Shown here in pieces: positions 29,020 through 40,123 of a stretch of 40,123 nucleotides of DNA. The notes beneath the pieces are model-generated. The model was given only the letters and a program-made list of their open reading frames with translations. It searched no databases and was not told where the DNA came from. Both the position numbers and the translations under genes were made by a program. The first letter of the stretch is position 1; each line of letters starts with the position of its first letter. The stretch covers positions 1 through 40,123 of the IMG/VR virus record IMGVR_UViG_3300032163_000041, one strand, 5' to 3'. Source of the DNA: a virus.

Positions 29020-29033
29020 GTAGAGGCCTCTAG
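29020..29033. promoter_or_regulatory. Isolated operator-like palindrome
   Basis: GTAGAGGCCTCTAG contains TAGA-N4-TCTA, the same core as the sites at 29171 and 31079. It sits between the two terminators, 150 bases upstream of the promoter, with no convincing -35 or -10 around it. It may be an auxiliary site for looping or cooperative binding. Confidence 0.5.
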
Positions 29034-29161: not shown

Positions 29162-29190
29162 TTGACGTTACTAGAGGTGTCTAGTAATAT
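29162..29190 (+). promoter_or_regulatory. Early promoter P1 with operator in spacer
   Basis: TTGACG (29162-29167), 17-nt spacer, TAATAT (29185-29190): a good sigma70-type promoter. The spacer carries the palindrome CTAGAGGTGTCTAG at 29171-29184, three bases after the -35 and abutting the -10. A protein bound there would block RNA polymerase. It drives the small-gene block from 29245. Confidence 0.8.
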
Positions 29191-29244
29191 ACATTCATGG
29201 ACACAGGGAGTCAGTCAACCGGCCTAGAGGCCACAGGGGGAAAC

Positions 29245-29508
29245 GTGAAAACAACGATACGCATCAAGTCGGGAGATCCGATCTACATGGTTACAGATCC
29301 GCAATCGAACACGGCCGTCCTGGAAGACATTTGCGGGCTGACAACGCTCGCCAGCATCGGGCGGCAGGTTCTCGGCGGACTGGACATCTCGAACGAACGC
29401 GCCACGATCTACGTCGGGCGCAATGCCGAGGTAATGGCCAAGGCCGATGCCAAGGCGCGTCTGCTTCGCGTGCGGCTGGCAGCCTACGGGATCGCAGGGT
29501 CGAAATGA
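29245..29508 (+). CDS. Hypothetical protein (87 aa), first gene of early operon
   Basis: I choose GTG 29245 with AGGGGGA upstream. An in-frame ATG at 29197 would coincide with the predicted transcription start of P1 and give a leaderless message; it is less likely. Thr/Ile/Arg-rich N-terminus, then a helical tail. Contains a DxxSNTAVLE-type stretch of unknown meaning. First gene after the promoter, so probably an early regulator or host-takeover protein (inference). Confidence 0.6.
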   Translation: MKTTIRIKSGDPIYMVTDPQSNTAVLEDICGLTTLASIGRQVLGGLDISNERATIYVGRNAEVMAKADAKARLLRVRLAAYGIAGSK

Positions 29509-29717
29509 CCGCCCCGAGGGTCGCCGCGCACAGGCCGGGGCTGCGTAGCCGGTCGGTACACGACGCCACCGACAGGGCGGCAGGGTATCTGGCCGACGCG
29601 AACGAGGCGGCAGAGCGCGGTGACAAGCGCAAGGCAGAGCGGCTTTACGCCAAAGCGCAGTACTGGCAGGATGCGATGAACCGCCGCATGGGGAACGGCG
29701 ACGGGGTGGCGTCGTGA
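29505..29717 (+). CDS. Hypothetical helical protein (70 aa), MTAPRVAAH start
   Basis: ATGA overlap. Helical and Arg/Ala-rich, no recognised family. Its first nine codons are repeated exactly at the start of the next gene, so the two share a 28-bp cassette. Confidence 0.6.
   Translation: MTAPRVAAHRPGLRSRSVHDATDRAAGYLADANEAAERGDKRKAERLYAKAQYWQDAMNRRMGNGDGVAS
29506..29533 (+). repeat. 28-bp gene-start repeat, copy 1
   Basis: Identical to 29715-29742; covers codons 1-9 of its gene except the first base. Only the start codon differs (ATG here, GTG in copy 2). Confidence 0.95.
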
Positions 29718-29971
29718 CCGCCCCGAGGGTCGCCGCGCACAGTATGAGTGATGCGGCGAGGGCTTGTGAACGCTGCGGGGATCTGCTTGACCCGAAGACG
29801 AAAGTATACCTGGAACTGAACTGCTATACCGGGATCTACACAGATCCCGACAAGGTGACGGTTCCGGGCAACGAGTCGCAAGGGCTTTTTTGGTTTGGAC
29901 GCGCGTGCGCGAAGAGGGTACTCGCGAGCGGCGGGTGTAATATTCGTACGCCGAAAGGCGGTGCCCGGTGA
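29714..29971 (+). CDS. Zinc-motif protein (85 aa), MTAPRVAAH start
   Basis: GTGA overlap with the previous gene. It has CxxCGD at about residues 18-23, then a YLELNCYTGIYTDP segment and a final RACAKRVL, a Cys spacing seen in small phage zinc proteins. Shares its N-terminus with the preceding gene. Confidence 0.6.
   Translation: MTAPRVAAHSMSDAARACERCGDLLDPKTKVYLELNCYTGIYTDPDKVTVPGNESQGLFWFGRACAKRVLASGGCNIRTPKGGAR
29715..29742 (+). repeat. 28-bp gene-start repeat, copy 2
   Basis: Exact copy of 29506-29533. A third, diverged version begins the gene at 29968 (MSAPRITAD). Confidence 0.95.
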
Positions 29972-30267
29972 GCGCCCCCCGAATCACCGCCGACATGCTG
30001 GCCGACAAGAAAGCCTGCGCCGATCAAGTCGAGACGTTCCGCAAACTGTTCCCTCGCGGGACGCCGGTCACGCTCGCCGCTGCCAAGCGGTGCGTCAAGG
30101 CCGGGTTGGATCTCGACTGGTTCGCCCAAGCGTTTTTGCCACCGAAGGCATACGCGGACTACTTGGCCAAGCGCGCCCCGCTGCTCGCGGACTACCTGGC
30201 CAAGCGCCACACGCTGCTCGTCCGCGCCTATCGTGCGGCGGGCAAGGCGTCAGGCGGTGCAGCATGA
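29968..30267 (+). CDS. Hypothetical protein (99 aa), MSAPRITAD start
   Basis: GTGA overlap. N-terminus is a diverged version of the MTAPRVAAH module. The middle resembles a short phage protein type with DQVETFRKLFP and a WFAQAFLPP segment. An internal repeat ADYLAKR occurs twice in tandem near the C-terminus. Function unknown. Confidence 0.6.
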   Translation: MSAPRITADMLADKKACADQVETFRKLFPRGTPVTLAAAKRCVKAGLDLDWFAQAFLPPKAYADYLAKRAPLLADYLAKRHTLLVRAYRAAGKASGGAA

Positions 30268-30428
30268 CGCCCGAGGCGTGGATTCTGGTAGCTGTCGCGC
30301 TGGCGTCGGGCTTCATGTTCGGTCTTGGCTACGGCGACGGGCGCGGATTCCGGCGCGGGATGGCACTCGGTCGGCACGTCGGCTCGGAGGCGCTGCGTGC
30401 GGCGGCGCGGCAGGCTGGTGAACGATGA
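30264..30428 (+). CDS. Small membrane protein (54 aa)
   Basis: ATGA overlap. One membrane helix near the N-terminus (WILVAVALASGFMFGLGYG), followed by an Arg-rich tail. Function unknown. Confidence 0.55.
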   Translation: MTPEAWILVAVALASGFMFGLGYGDGRGFRRGMALGRHVGSEALRAAARQAGER

Positions 30429-30760
30429 GAGTCGAACAGGATCGCCTACGCGGAGACGGTCGGCCTCGGATGTTCGGGCGCACGTCCGACGAACATCGGG
30501 CAGAGGCTCGGCGGAATCGAGGCTCGGCGCTGCATTGGATCTCGGTCGGCGAGCGCGATCTGGCTCTCTCGCAACGCGCATTCGCGGATCGGTGCAACGC
30601 CTGGGCGCGTTCGCTCGAACGGATCGAACGCGCTGATGCGGCCCGCGAACGCGAGCGCATGGGCCATCCTCGATTCGAGGACTCGGTGCGCCTCTGCGTC
30701 TCACGCGGAACGATCTCGCCATCCGTGGGACGGCGGCTGATCGCGGAGGCGGGGGCATGA
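30425..30760 (+). CDS. Arg-rich protein (111 aa)
   Basis: ATGA overlap. Very rich in Arg, Glu and Ala, low in hydrophobics, possibly nucleic-acid binding. Its other frames are also open because of the composition, but the overlap and start pattern favour this frame. Confidence 0.5.
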   Translation: MRVEQDRLRGDGRPRMFGRTSDEHRAEARRNRGSALHWISVGERDLALSQRAFADRCNAWARSLERIERADAARERERMGHPRFEDSVRLCVSRGTISPSVGRRLIAEAGA

Positions 30761-30966
30761 GGCCCCTGCGGTTCTGGTTCTACGCGGCATGGTGGCGCTA
30801 CCTGTTGGGCAAGTCTAATAACCGATGGCCGGATCGCGGGCTGGGGGCATATTTACGGCGCGTCGTTTGTCGCGCCCGAGGTCATCCTGCTGGCATCGTA
30901 TTCTTCAATCCGGGCGGGTTGGAGCCCAACATGTCTTGTAGAAACTGCGGCGAGGATGCATCGTGA
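30757..30966 (+). CDS. Basic protein with C-terminal zinc motif (69 aa)
   Basis: ATGA overlap. It begins with a hydrophobic aromatic segment, then RVVCRARGH, and ends CRNCGED. The Cys/His layout suggests one zinc site formed between the middle and the end. Confidence 0.55.
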   Translation: MRPLRFWFYAAWWRYLLGKSNNRWPDRGLGAYLRRVVCRARGHPAGIVFFNPGGLEPNMSCRNCGEDAS

Positions 30967-31073
30967 AGTGGATCGGCTGGCTCTATCTCGCTGGCTGCTG
31001 GGTGTTCATTCTCGCCGTAGTCGTCTGGCCCCTATGCCGGGCAGCAGCACGCGGAGATCAGATTAGGCGTTGA
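30963..31073 (+). CDS. 36-residue membrane peptide
   Basis: GTG overlaps the previous stop. One strong helix at about residues 4-24 (Trp- and Val-rich) and a basic end. Its stop TGA lies inside the -35 box of the second promoter. Confidence 0.5.
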   Translation: MKWIGWLYLAGCWVFILAVVVWPLCRAAARGDQIRR

Positions 31074-31098
31074 CATTCCTAGATGGGTCTAGTAGTAA
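31070..31098 (+). promoter_or_regulatory. Second promoter P2 with the same operator
   Basis: TTGACA (31070-31075), 17-nt spacer, TAGTAA (31093-31098; weak -10). The spacer holds CTAGATGGGTCTAG at 31079-31092, again three bases after the -35 and abutting the -10, the same layout as P1. It precedes the HTH gene at 31129. Confidence 0.7.
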
Positions 31099-31338: not shown

Positions 31339-31879
31339 CGCAGATACGGGCGAAGTAACCGAAACGGCGCTCGTTACCGCGCCGCTGGGGCCGTCGCCAT
31401 TCAACCGCGAGCGCCCTCTCGTAGAGATTTCGCTCGCGTGTGATCGAGTGTTGGCAAACCTGAGGGACGAGACACGCCCGCTAGACGCGCTACCATCAGA
31501 TACCCACCAAGTCGAGGCGCTGGCGAAGGCCTTCTATGCGTGGTGGAAGGCCTGCGATGCGGCGATTGTCTCTCGGATGCGGGCGCGAAACTCGAAACTT
31601 ATCGGCGACCCACGCAAGGGGCCAGCACTCGCGCTGAAAGAAGAACACGACTACACGTTTGACGAGAAGATTCTGAAGGGGCTGATCGCATTCGTGGACA
31701 AGCCGGACGGCCTGACGGCGGGAGAGTACGAAGGGGCGCTTCGATACACGTTCGATCCGTCCAAGACGGCGCTGAACAATCTGCAAAAGCGCGGCGGCAA
31801 GGTCGCGGAGATCATCGCGCTTGGCGTCCGTGACAACCCACAATACAAACTCGAGCTACGCGGAGGAACGCACAAGTGA
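31325..31879 (+). CDS. Hypothetical protein upstream of recombination gene (184 aa)
   Basis: GTG start overlapping the HTH gene. Mixed alpha/beta, with a central EEHDYTFDEK stretch and a C-terminal region ending in EIIALGV. Tight GTGA coupling to the next gene suggests a shared role. Family not recognised. Confidence 0.6.
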   Translation: METIDADTGEVTETALVTAPLGPSPFNRERPLVEISLACDRVLANLRDETRPLDALPSDTHQVEALAKAFYAWWKACDAAIVSRMRARNSKLIGDPRKGPALALKEEHDYTFDEKILKGLIAFVDKPDGLTAGEYEGALRYTFDPSKTALNNLQKRGGKVAEIIALGVRDNPQYKLELRGGTHK

Positions 31880-33231
31880 CCAACGAGACGGGCAAGGCAA
31901 CCGAGATCCCGATGGTGTCGGCAGAACCGATGCCGACGAACGGTAGCGGGGCGCTGGCGATCCGCGCAAACGAGCCGATGGTCATGGACATTCGGCGCTC
32001 GCTCCCGCAGGCGAAAGCGCAGTTCGAGGCGATCCAGGAGTTTGTCAAAGACGTGCTGAAAGAGTCCGTCGCGGAAGACAAGGAAAAAGGGATCGAGGCC
32101 AAGGACGGCGACTATGGCCGCGTGCCGGGGATCGCAAAGCCGTTCTTGTTCAAGAGCGGTGCGGAGAAAATCGCGGCGCTGTTCGGCTACGCCCCGGTCT
32201 ACGTCACGCTCGAAAAGATCGAAGACTTCGGCGAGCGGGCGGTGAACGGGTTTTTCTTCTACCGCTACCGATGCGACCTCACATCAAAGAACACGGGCGC
32301 GGTCATGGGATCGGGCATCGGATCGTGCAACTCGAAAGAGGAGCGCTACCGATGGGCGCAGACGGAGCGCGTTTGCCCGAACTGCCAGAAGGCGGCGATC
32401 ATCAAGGGCAAGAAGGAATACGGTGGCGGCTGGCTCTGCTTCCAGAAAAAGGGCGGCTGTGGCAACAAGTGGCCGGACGGGGACCGATCCATCGAGAGTC
32501 AGTCCACCGAACGAGTCGAGCGCGAAGCATTCTCGCTCGTCAACACGATTGACAAAATGGCGCAGAAGCGGGCGCTGGTTGCGGCGGTACTGATTGCTAC
32601 CGGCACGTCGGCGCTGTTTACGCAGGACGAAGAGACGGTCGAGGCGTCCGACAAGGGCGCGACCGCGAAGCCCGCGACGGTTGTCTCGGGCGCAACGGCC
32701 AGCCCGCCAGCTACCGAAAAACCAGGGGCGAAAGCGGCACCTGCGGAATCGGCGAGCGGCCCGTTCTGGCGCGAGGCGGCACCGATTGAGGTCGAGCGGC
32801 ACTTCCTGCATCCAGAGGACAAACACGGGAAGTCGAAAAGCAAAAAGGGCGGCGAGTTGCCAGAAGGCTGCCGGTATCAGGTGACGCAAGAGAAGGGCGT
32901 CAAGGGAAAGCCTGGCTACGAGCCAGCGGTCTTTGCCAAGATGGTTGACGCGAACTTGTACGGGGCCGATCCGAGAAACGCCTCCGCGCCGGGACCAAAG
33001 CCCGCGACGGTCGTCTCGGTGGAATCTCCCGCGCACGGCCCGCTGCAAGGCGACAATCTGGACCGGGAGATCGCGCTAGAGATCCGCAAGCGGGGCTGGA
33101 CGCCTTCAAAGGTAACTCTGCGGGCGCACGCGCTCGGCGCACAGGATGGCGAGTGGACGCGGGCCGACGAGGCAATCAAGATGCGCCTGCTGTCTGCGCT
33201 CTGTGATTCGGAAGTCGCGGTGACGGCATGA
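31876..33231 (+). CDS. Putative recombination/annealing protein with zinc ribbon
   Basis: A 451-residue protein with a GTGA start. It belongs to a widespread phage family: YGRVPGIAKPFLFKSGAEKI (about 80-99), FFFYRYRC (126-133), a zinc ribbon (CPNC at 167-170, Cys188, Cys195), and NTIDKMAQKRALVAAVLIATGTSALFTQD (about 223-251). The last block recalls the helix seen in Rad52-like and RecT-like annealers, but I cannot prove this. A Pro/Ala/Lys-rich linker (about 255-300) and a C-terminal helical domain follow. Likely ssDNA binding or annealing in recombination. Confidence 0.55.
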   Translation: MTNETGKATEIPMVSAEPMPTNGSGALAIRANEPMVMDIRRSLPQAKAQFEAIQEFVKDVLKESVAEDKEKGIEAKDGDYGRVPGIAKPFLFKSGAEKIAALFGYAPVYVTLEKIEDFGERAVNGFFFYRYRCDLTSKNTGAVMGSGIGSCNSKEERYRWAQTERVCPNCQKAAIIKGKKEYGGGWLCFQKKGGCGNKWPDGDRSIESQSTERVEREAFSLVNTIDKMAQKRALVAAVLIATGTSALFTQDEETVEASDKGATAKPATVVSGATASPPATEKPGAKAAPAESASGPFWREAAPIEVERHFLHPEDKHGKSKSKKGGELPEGCRYQVTQEKGVKGKPGYEPAVFAKMVDANLYGADPRNASAPGPKPATVVSVESPAHGPLQGDNLDREIALEIRKRGWTPSKVTLRAHALGAQDGEWTRADEAIKMRLLSALCDSEVAVTA

Positions 33232-34188: not shown

Positions 34189-35386
34189 CGGCGTTCCGGC
34201 CGAATACATCGAGGCGTGTACGTATCCCGGTAGGCTCAACGAGGCGGAGGTCCAGACCGCGCTCGAACATTACGTGTCGAGCCTCGGGATCTCGCGGGAG
34301 GTAAGGCGGCTGCGGAGGGGATGGACGGTTGAGGACGACACTAATCTGCGTGCGTGGGTTGGAACGCTGGCGGCAGACGTTTGTGATCTTCTCGACGCCC
34401 GCGACGCCCTCGACGCCCGCGACGCCCTCGACGCCAGCGACGCCCGCGACGCCCTCGCCGCCCGCGCCGCCCGCGCCGCCCGCGCCGCCCTCGACGCCCT
34501 CGACGCCCGCGCCGCCCGCGACGCCCGCGACGCCCGCGACGCCCTCGCCGCCCGCGCCGCCCGCGCCGCCCGCGCCGCCAGCGCCGCCCTCGACGCCCGC
34601 GACGCCCGCGCCGCCCGCGCCGCCCGCGCCGCCAGCGACGCCCTCGCCGCCCGCGACGCCCTCGACGCCCGCGACGCCCGCGACGCCAGCGACGCGCTGG
34701 AACGGTTCGCGCGATGGGCAGTAGCAAAATCTGGCTGGTGGTATTCATTCGATATATCGTGGATTTCGACCACGCACATCGGAGCGCGGCAAACTGGTAA
34801 GATTTTGCCGTGGGCGAGGCACCTCTACGATTCGTTCTTGGTCGGAGCATGGTATTTGATCTGGACCGACAAGGTGATCTATTGGGTGGCGAAGCCGACA
34901 GTCCACAAGACTGCCGAGAGACGCCTGCACAACGATCATGGCCCCGCAATCGTGTCGGACGCAGAGGATCTATATTTCCTCAACGGGGTGCTCGTGGAGC
35001 CGTGGCTGGTCGAGACCCCGGCAGATAAGTTGGACCCGGTGAAGGTAATGGCGTTGGAAAACGTGGACGAGCGGCGAGAGGGAATCCGCAAGGTCGGAAT
35101 AGATCGGATGCTAGAAAAACTGGACGCCCGGATCGTGGACACGTGGAGCTACCAGACCGAGAACGGCGAAGTGCATCCGTACGAACTGTATGCTCTGAAA
35201 CTACCAGGGGCCGAGGCAGAGTCGAAGGCGCTGAAGATGCGGAATCCGTCGCTTGGCGTGTATCACGTCGAGTTTGTCTGGCCAGGAGTCAAGACGTGCC
35301 GTGAGGCGCTGGCTTGGCGCAACACGGGCGGATCGCAGGATAGTAAGGTTCTCGCCGCATGGACGCCGCCTCCGGTGCTGACGTGA
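34175..35386 (+). CDS. DUF6745-like protein with Ala-rich 34-unit repeat
   Basis: A 403-residue protein. Start GTG 34175 with AGGAGG upstream; the frame is open further upstream only in the shadow of the partner gene. An N-terminal helical region is followed by 34 three-residue units D/A-A-R/L/S, then a Trp-rich segment (ARHLYDSFLVGAWYLIW) and a C-terminal domain with RRLHNDHGPAIVSDAEDLYFLNGVLV and then EEN/ERR-like positions (ALENVDERREGIRKVG). That arrangement is typical of DUF6745-type proteins, whose role is unknown. Confidence 0.55.
   Translation: MSRTSGVPAEYIEACTYPGRLNEAEVQTALEHYVSSLGISREVRRLRRGWTVEDDTNLRAWVGTLAADVCDLLDARDALDARDALDASDARDALAARAARAARAALDALDARAARDARDARDALAARAARAARAASAALDARDARAARAARAASDALAARDALDARDARDASDALERFARWAVAKSGWWYSFDISWISTTHIGARQTGKILPWARHLYDSFLVGAWYLIWTDKVIYWVAKPTVHKTAERRLHNDHGPAIVSDAEDLYFLNGVLVEPWLVETPADKLDPVKVMALENVDERREGIRKVGIDRMLEKLDARIVDTWSYQTENGEVHPYELYALKLPGAEAESKALKMRNPSLGVYHVEFVWPGVKTCREALAWRNTGGSQDSKVLAAWTPPPVLT
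34394..34699 (+). repeat. 34 x 9-bp in-frame tandem repeat
   Basis: 34 units of GAC/GCC GCC CGC/CTC/AGC encode D/A-A-R/L/S. Third positions are C in almost every codon, except the final DAL unit which uses GCG and CTG, which implies recent expansion. All six frames are open across it. Confidence 0.92.
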
Positions 35387-39818: not shown

Positions 39819-40001
39819 ATGTCTGGAGCTTTTGGATTGGTGACTTGTCGGACGTTCAAGTGCCAGCACAAGGTCAGGCGCAACTTTCAGCGCCCGGCCG
39901 ATGCGCGTGGAGCGCGGGGCCAGCAACTCGCGGATGGGGAACGCTGCTACCGTTGCCGCAAGCGACTGGCGCGGGCGAAATGGCGCGGAGTCGAAGCATG
40001 A
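39819..40001 (+). CDS. Small zinc-motif protein (60 aa)
   Basis: ATG two bases after the previous stop with AGGAGGC upstream. CRTFKC then CYRCRKR, a zinc-ribbon layout in a basic protein. Its ATGA overlap sets up the helicase-methyltransferase start. Confidence 0.55.
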   Translation: MSGAFGLVTCRTFKCQHKVRRNFQRPADARGARGQQLADGERCYRCRKRLARAKWRGVEA

Positions 40002-40123
40002 GCGACTACGAGACATTCCTACGATCCAAGGACTTCGCGCAAGTCGAGACGGGCATCAAAGACGGCTACACGCTGTCGGCGCATCTGAAGCCGTTTCAAG
40101 CGGACGTTATTCGATGGGCGCTC
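39997..40123. repeat. 127-bp terminal redundancy, right copy
   Basis: Same as 1-127. Shows the circle junction. Confidence 0.95.
39998..40123 (+). CDS. 5' fragment of helicase-methyltransferase (copy)
   Basis: Repeats the first 42 codons of the gene at 2. GGAG at 39987-39990 supplies its ribosome-binding site. Not a second gene. Confidence 0.9.
   Translation, partial: MSDYETFLRSKDFAQVETGIKDGYTLSAHLKPFQADVIRWAL

Follow-up and report, generated by a model that had tools for sequence, protein, structure and literature searches.

A 28-bp exact repeat shared by the starts of two unrelated neighbouring genes in a phage operon

The operon and its surroundings

The window, by which we mean the whole stretch of DNA analyzed, is the 40,123-bp IMG/VR virus record IMGVR_UViG_3300032163_000041 of an uncultured phage. 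Its positions 29197 to 30966 contain the operon U-A-B-C-D-E-F, with a 4-nt ATGA or GTGA overlap at every junction. The features considered here are:

29197..29508, + strand: gene U, 103 aa, first in the operon, ATGA overlap with A
29505..29717, + strand: gene A, ATG start, 70 aa; MTAPRVAAH start followed by a helical-hairpin family body
29506..29533, + strand: 28-bp direct repeat, copy 1, exact match to copy 2
29506..29714, + strand: 209-bp unit (one repeat plus the A body), removable by recombination between the repeats
29714..29971, + strand: gene B, GTG start, 85 aa; same 9-residue start as A
29715..29742, + strand: 28-bp direct repeat, copy 2, whose TGA doubles as the stop codon of A
29968..30267, + strand: gene C, GTG start, 99 aa; [RK]IT..hL..K.AC..QV..F family, with 11-aa ADYLAKR repeats

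Searches of gene U against Pfam and PHROGs gave no family match. Because the starts of A and B, as at all junctions of the operon, overlap the stop codon of the gene upstream, both are probably translated by coupling to that gene. The operon is bracketed by a promoter/operator-like element, TTGAC-N4-CTAGA-N4-TCTAG-TA, present at 29162–29186 and again at 31070–31094 (0 chance copies expected), and an imperfect third CTAGA..TCTAG palindrome lies at 29020; the CTAGA-N4-TCTAG elements are possibly sites of a shared early-gene regulator.

Elsewhere in the window, positions 2–2278 hold a gene whose product joins an SNF2-like helicase to an adenine-type DNA methyltransferase domain, according to weak NCBIfam matches that all fall far short of the cut-off. 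Inside a gene at 34328–34741 runs a long array of a 9-bp repeat, which reads LDARDALDARAARAA... on the + strand and faces an open RRG-repeat frame on the other strand. The record ends in a 127-bp exact terminal repeat (1–127 and 39997–40123), which is probably not biological but a k-mer overlap left where the assembler closed a circular genome.

A 28-bp repeat at the starts of A and B

The 40,123-bp record contains two exact copies of the repeat, TGACCGCCCCGAGGGTCGCCGCGCACAG, and no further copy was found elsewhere in the window with up to three mismatches allowed; 0 occurrences are expected in shuffled sequence. It is the sole exact repeat of its size in the window that is neither low-complexity nor terminal. 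In both genes it runs from base two of the start codon through codons 2–9 and stops two bases into codon 10. The one start-codon base outside it differs, giving ATG in A and GTG in B within the respective ATGA and GTGA stop-start overlaps. Over the 28 nt the two genes are identical, with 0 synonymous differences, and the flanks beyond are unrelated (60-nt local alignment, p 0.53 after and 0.90 before the repeat). The earlier note, made from the letters of this stretch, had described such an exact repeat over the first nine codons of two neighbours, and the copies at 29506–29533 and 29715–29742 bear it out.

No promoter or terminator was found within the repeat on the coding strand. The earlier note had also proposed looking for the same 5′ segment in front of other genes elsewhere; a scan of viral contigs with the first 20 bp was negative, its one 20-bp match sitting inside an unrelated GC-rich gene and being attributable to chance. 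Across 1.69 Mb of fetched loci we saw no second case of two genuine gene starts paired in this way; the other hits of this survey comprised tandem repeats, one plain duplication (L033) and starts judged non-genic (L157, L027).

The three gene bodies belong to separate families

For A, B and C, nothing convincing came from Pfam or PHROGs, and single-sequence searches found no relative of any of the three in viral contigs, nor of C in genome contigs. Their families were detected only through two-row alignments or motif patterns. Using HMMs built with the window gene left out of the profile, each of A, B and C matched its own phage family alone, and none hit the profile of another gene even at E up to 10. 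The bodies thus fall into three separate families, which excludes plain tandem gene duplication and agrees with the earlier proposal that the genes differ downstream of their shared start. One genome (G017/L183) carries relatives of A and B on a single contig, about 3 kb apart.

The A family core (LADxNEAxExG...KA..) matched at E 1.9e-20 over residues 17–65. Its members occur in phages and on six genome contigs, all proteobacterial and including Pleomorphomonas, Caballeronia, Cupriavidus and Pseudaminobacter; a search of 397 genomes of one order returned a single relative, the one already known. Structure prediction places helices at residues 11–38 and 41–61 of A, with a pLDDT of 55 for residues 1–10. 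The first predicted helix therefore begins directly after the 9-residue module, and this N-terminal extension is probably unstructured. The relatives begin differently (M..KTLxEKIxDA), and 10 of the 12 listed have 19–24 residues before the core compared with 28 in A, the exceptions being L035 with 27 and L037 with 55. A MTAPRVAAH-type start was absent from all A relatives found.

The B family (CxxC...LEL...SQG.F.FG..CA; E 1.5e-22, residues 12–74) is widespread in phages; it has a CxxC...C pattern and is probably zinc-binding. Residues 1–10 of B were predicted with a pLDDT of 54, and a fold search gave no confident match.

The start of gene C resembles those of A and B more distantly. MSAPRITAD agrees with their start in 4 of 8 residues after the methionine and at 19 of the 28 nt. 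Among the other starts in the window it ranks first by peptide score (23, a value that 6e-5 of random start pairs reach), and among the remaining RTGA sites it ranks first by DNA. Its own family, however, accounts for much of this segment: the C profile (E 2.1e-16) covers residues 5–70, from R-I-T onward, and C relatives natively begin M[RK]IT..hL..KGAC, one of them (L169) beginning VTAVIITADLL. Only the prefix "SAP" lies outside the family domain. Since R-I-T and what follows belong to that domain, a diverged copy on C is not established and a third copy of the module is unproven. Of the earlier claim of three module copies, with a diverged one on the third gene, the resemblance stands and the copy status does not; just two copies, on A and B, are certain.

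Origin of the shared start

We consider it probable that this coupled operon of small phage genes acquired A through recombination at a gene border, and that the event duplicated B's first 28 coding bases. The body of A would have entered at an ATGA/GTGA border by mosaic exchange, and A would thereby carry the start of B as a 9-residue N-terminal extension. Because A is flanked by 28-bp direct repeats, it is precisely deletable: removal of 29506–29714 in silico leaves U unchanged, a U-ATGA-B junction and an intact 85-codon B whose start is now ATG. Homologous or single-strand-annealing recombination between the repeats could carry out such a deletion. Searches for relatives of the region found no close one, and none in which U and B are adjacent and A is absent. 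We infer the insertion of A, as opposed to copying of B's start onto a resident A, and likewise the recombination pathway and the recency of the event. If C were a true third copy, a single insertion would not explain its start.

Given such a gain, copying quite probably ran from B to A. The segment is probably native to B, as A relatives lack this start, the first helix of A begins at residue 11 and the best match to the segment is a B relative. When 7,979 start peptides from the fetched loci were compared with TAPRVAAHS, the top match was L050 (MTSMQAPRVMGHTNEIDPSSRYC), and in a MAFFT alignment the APRV of B falls on the PRV with which L050 and L131 start. None of 16 A relatives scored 10 or more. 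Among B relatives 15% did so against a background of 17%; with the family as a whole not enriched, the direction rests on one subgroup, whose members start with (T/A)PRV.

Phage annealing proteins are able to use diverged or very short homologies (PMC2327257). Downstream of the operon, positions 31876–33231 encode a 451-aa protein with a CxxC zinc-ribbon-like stretch; it matches only PHROG 10048, of unknown function, and has relatives in 23 fetched viral loci.

The same end state could arise in another order: B would first be duplicated in tandem, and the body of the first copy would then give way to that of A. This would yield the same junctions and would fit a start that appears native to a B subgroup, but it needs two events, and no remnant of B is seen in A past codon 10 (p 0.53 over the next 60 nt). 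We regard it as unlikely.

Alternative roles of the shared start

The earlier note read the repeat as start-region shuffling, in which a proven translation-initiation cassette moves in front of new coding sequences. A short 5′ coding segment does appear to have been copied between neighbours; the cassette part of the proposal does not hold. The repeat lacks a Shine-Dalgarno sequence and leaves out the start codon's first base. Over the 60 nt that precede them, A and B are unrelated. Among 27 starts tested, the initiation regions of B and A were the second and fifth most strongly folded, with folding energies at the shuffle average, so that their structure is not unusual. Nothing in these features marks the repeat as a good initiation cassette. 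They also speak against a selected module, that is, a 5′ coding segment kept for initiation or coupling and recruited by several genes. Similar starts on two, perhaps three, consecutive coupled genes and a repeat that begins inside the start codon would suit such a module, but this genome holds no further copy and the first 20 bp had no usable match in the viral collection, and we consider it quite improbable. The shared start is most likely ordinary phage mosaicism, a by-product of gene splicing at the border and not a special translation-start cassette.

A broader version, in which three consecutive coupled early genes from different families actively retain M[ST]APR[VI][AT]A, whether as a shared tag or as a coupling element that spreads by copying, seems very improbable to us. 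There is similarly a slim chance that MTAPRVAAH / MSAPRITAD is a shared N-terminal peptide tag with a role in proteins A, B and C, such as a signal for binding or degradation. Such a tag would be in keeping with the predicted lack of structure in residues 1–10 of A and B, and the C peptide resembles the other two beyond chance, its changes being conservative or synonymous. The lack of any synonymous change between A and B, however, points to recent copying and not to selection on the peptide, R-I-T in C is part of that gene's own family domain, and A relatives do without the peptide.

An assembly artefact joining two reads at the 28-mer is highly implausible: a record from the IMG/VR virus collection is probably a metagenome assembly, but the 127-bp terminal repeat suggests a k of about 127, longer than the repeat, and neither the reading frames nor the stop-start overlaps are broken on either side.

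If A was gained by recombination at the border, the repeat is a legible record of how phage operons take up small genes: the splice lies at a stop-start overlap, the new gene inherits the first codons of its neighbour, and the leftover direct repeats make it removable. An N-terminus common to adjacent phage genes need not imply a common function.

Comparison with known systems

The PeSL elements of T4-like phages are mobile promoter/stem-loop cassettes, short repeats at gene borders that are linked to module shuffling. The A/B repeat is likewise a short repeated element at gene borders, but on the coding strand it carries neither a promoter nor a terminator.

Start Associated Sequences of Cluster K mycobacteriophages lie 3–7 bp upstream of the start, contain AGGAG and occur in 11–19 copies per genome, mostly in wide intergenic gaps (PMC3203893). 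They too are tied to starts of different gene families; the A/B repeat, by contrast, lies inside coding sequence, lacks a Shine-Dalgarno sequence and has two copies, and is not a repeat of this kind, which would bear a Shine-Dalgarno sequence upstream of many starts.

In the mosaicism of lambdoid phages, short conserved boundary sequences mark gene borders (PMC3029335, PMC2327257). Like the 28-bp repeat, they are stretches of short homology at such borders where recombination can take place; they recur across related phages, whereas the A/B repeat is so far unique to one genome.

The nearest precedent comes from the Cluster I mycobacteriophage Island3, whose genes 67 and 68 share ∼60 bp at their 3′ ends, with a single copy in Brujita (PMC3029335). 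There, as in A and B, unrelated neighbours have a common terminal coding segment at the nucleotide level, and recombination between the copies would account for gene gain or loss. Two differences remain: the shared segment is ∼60 bp at 3′ ends in Island3 and 28 bp at 5′ ends here, and in Island3 the event is supported by a gene present in one phage and absent from the sister genome Brujita, whereas no sister genome is known here. With an end segment shared by unrelated neighbours and a gene order left intact by in-silico recombination, the A/B case appears to be a close match to Island3 and hence a known kind of event.
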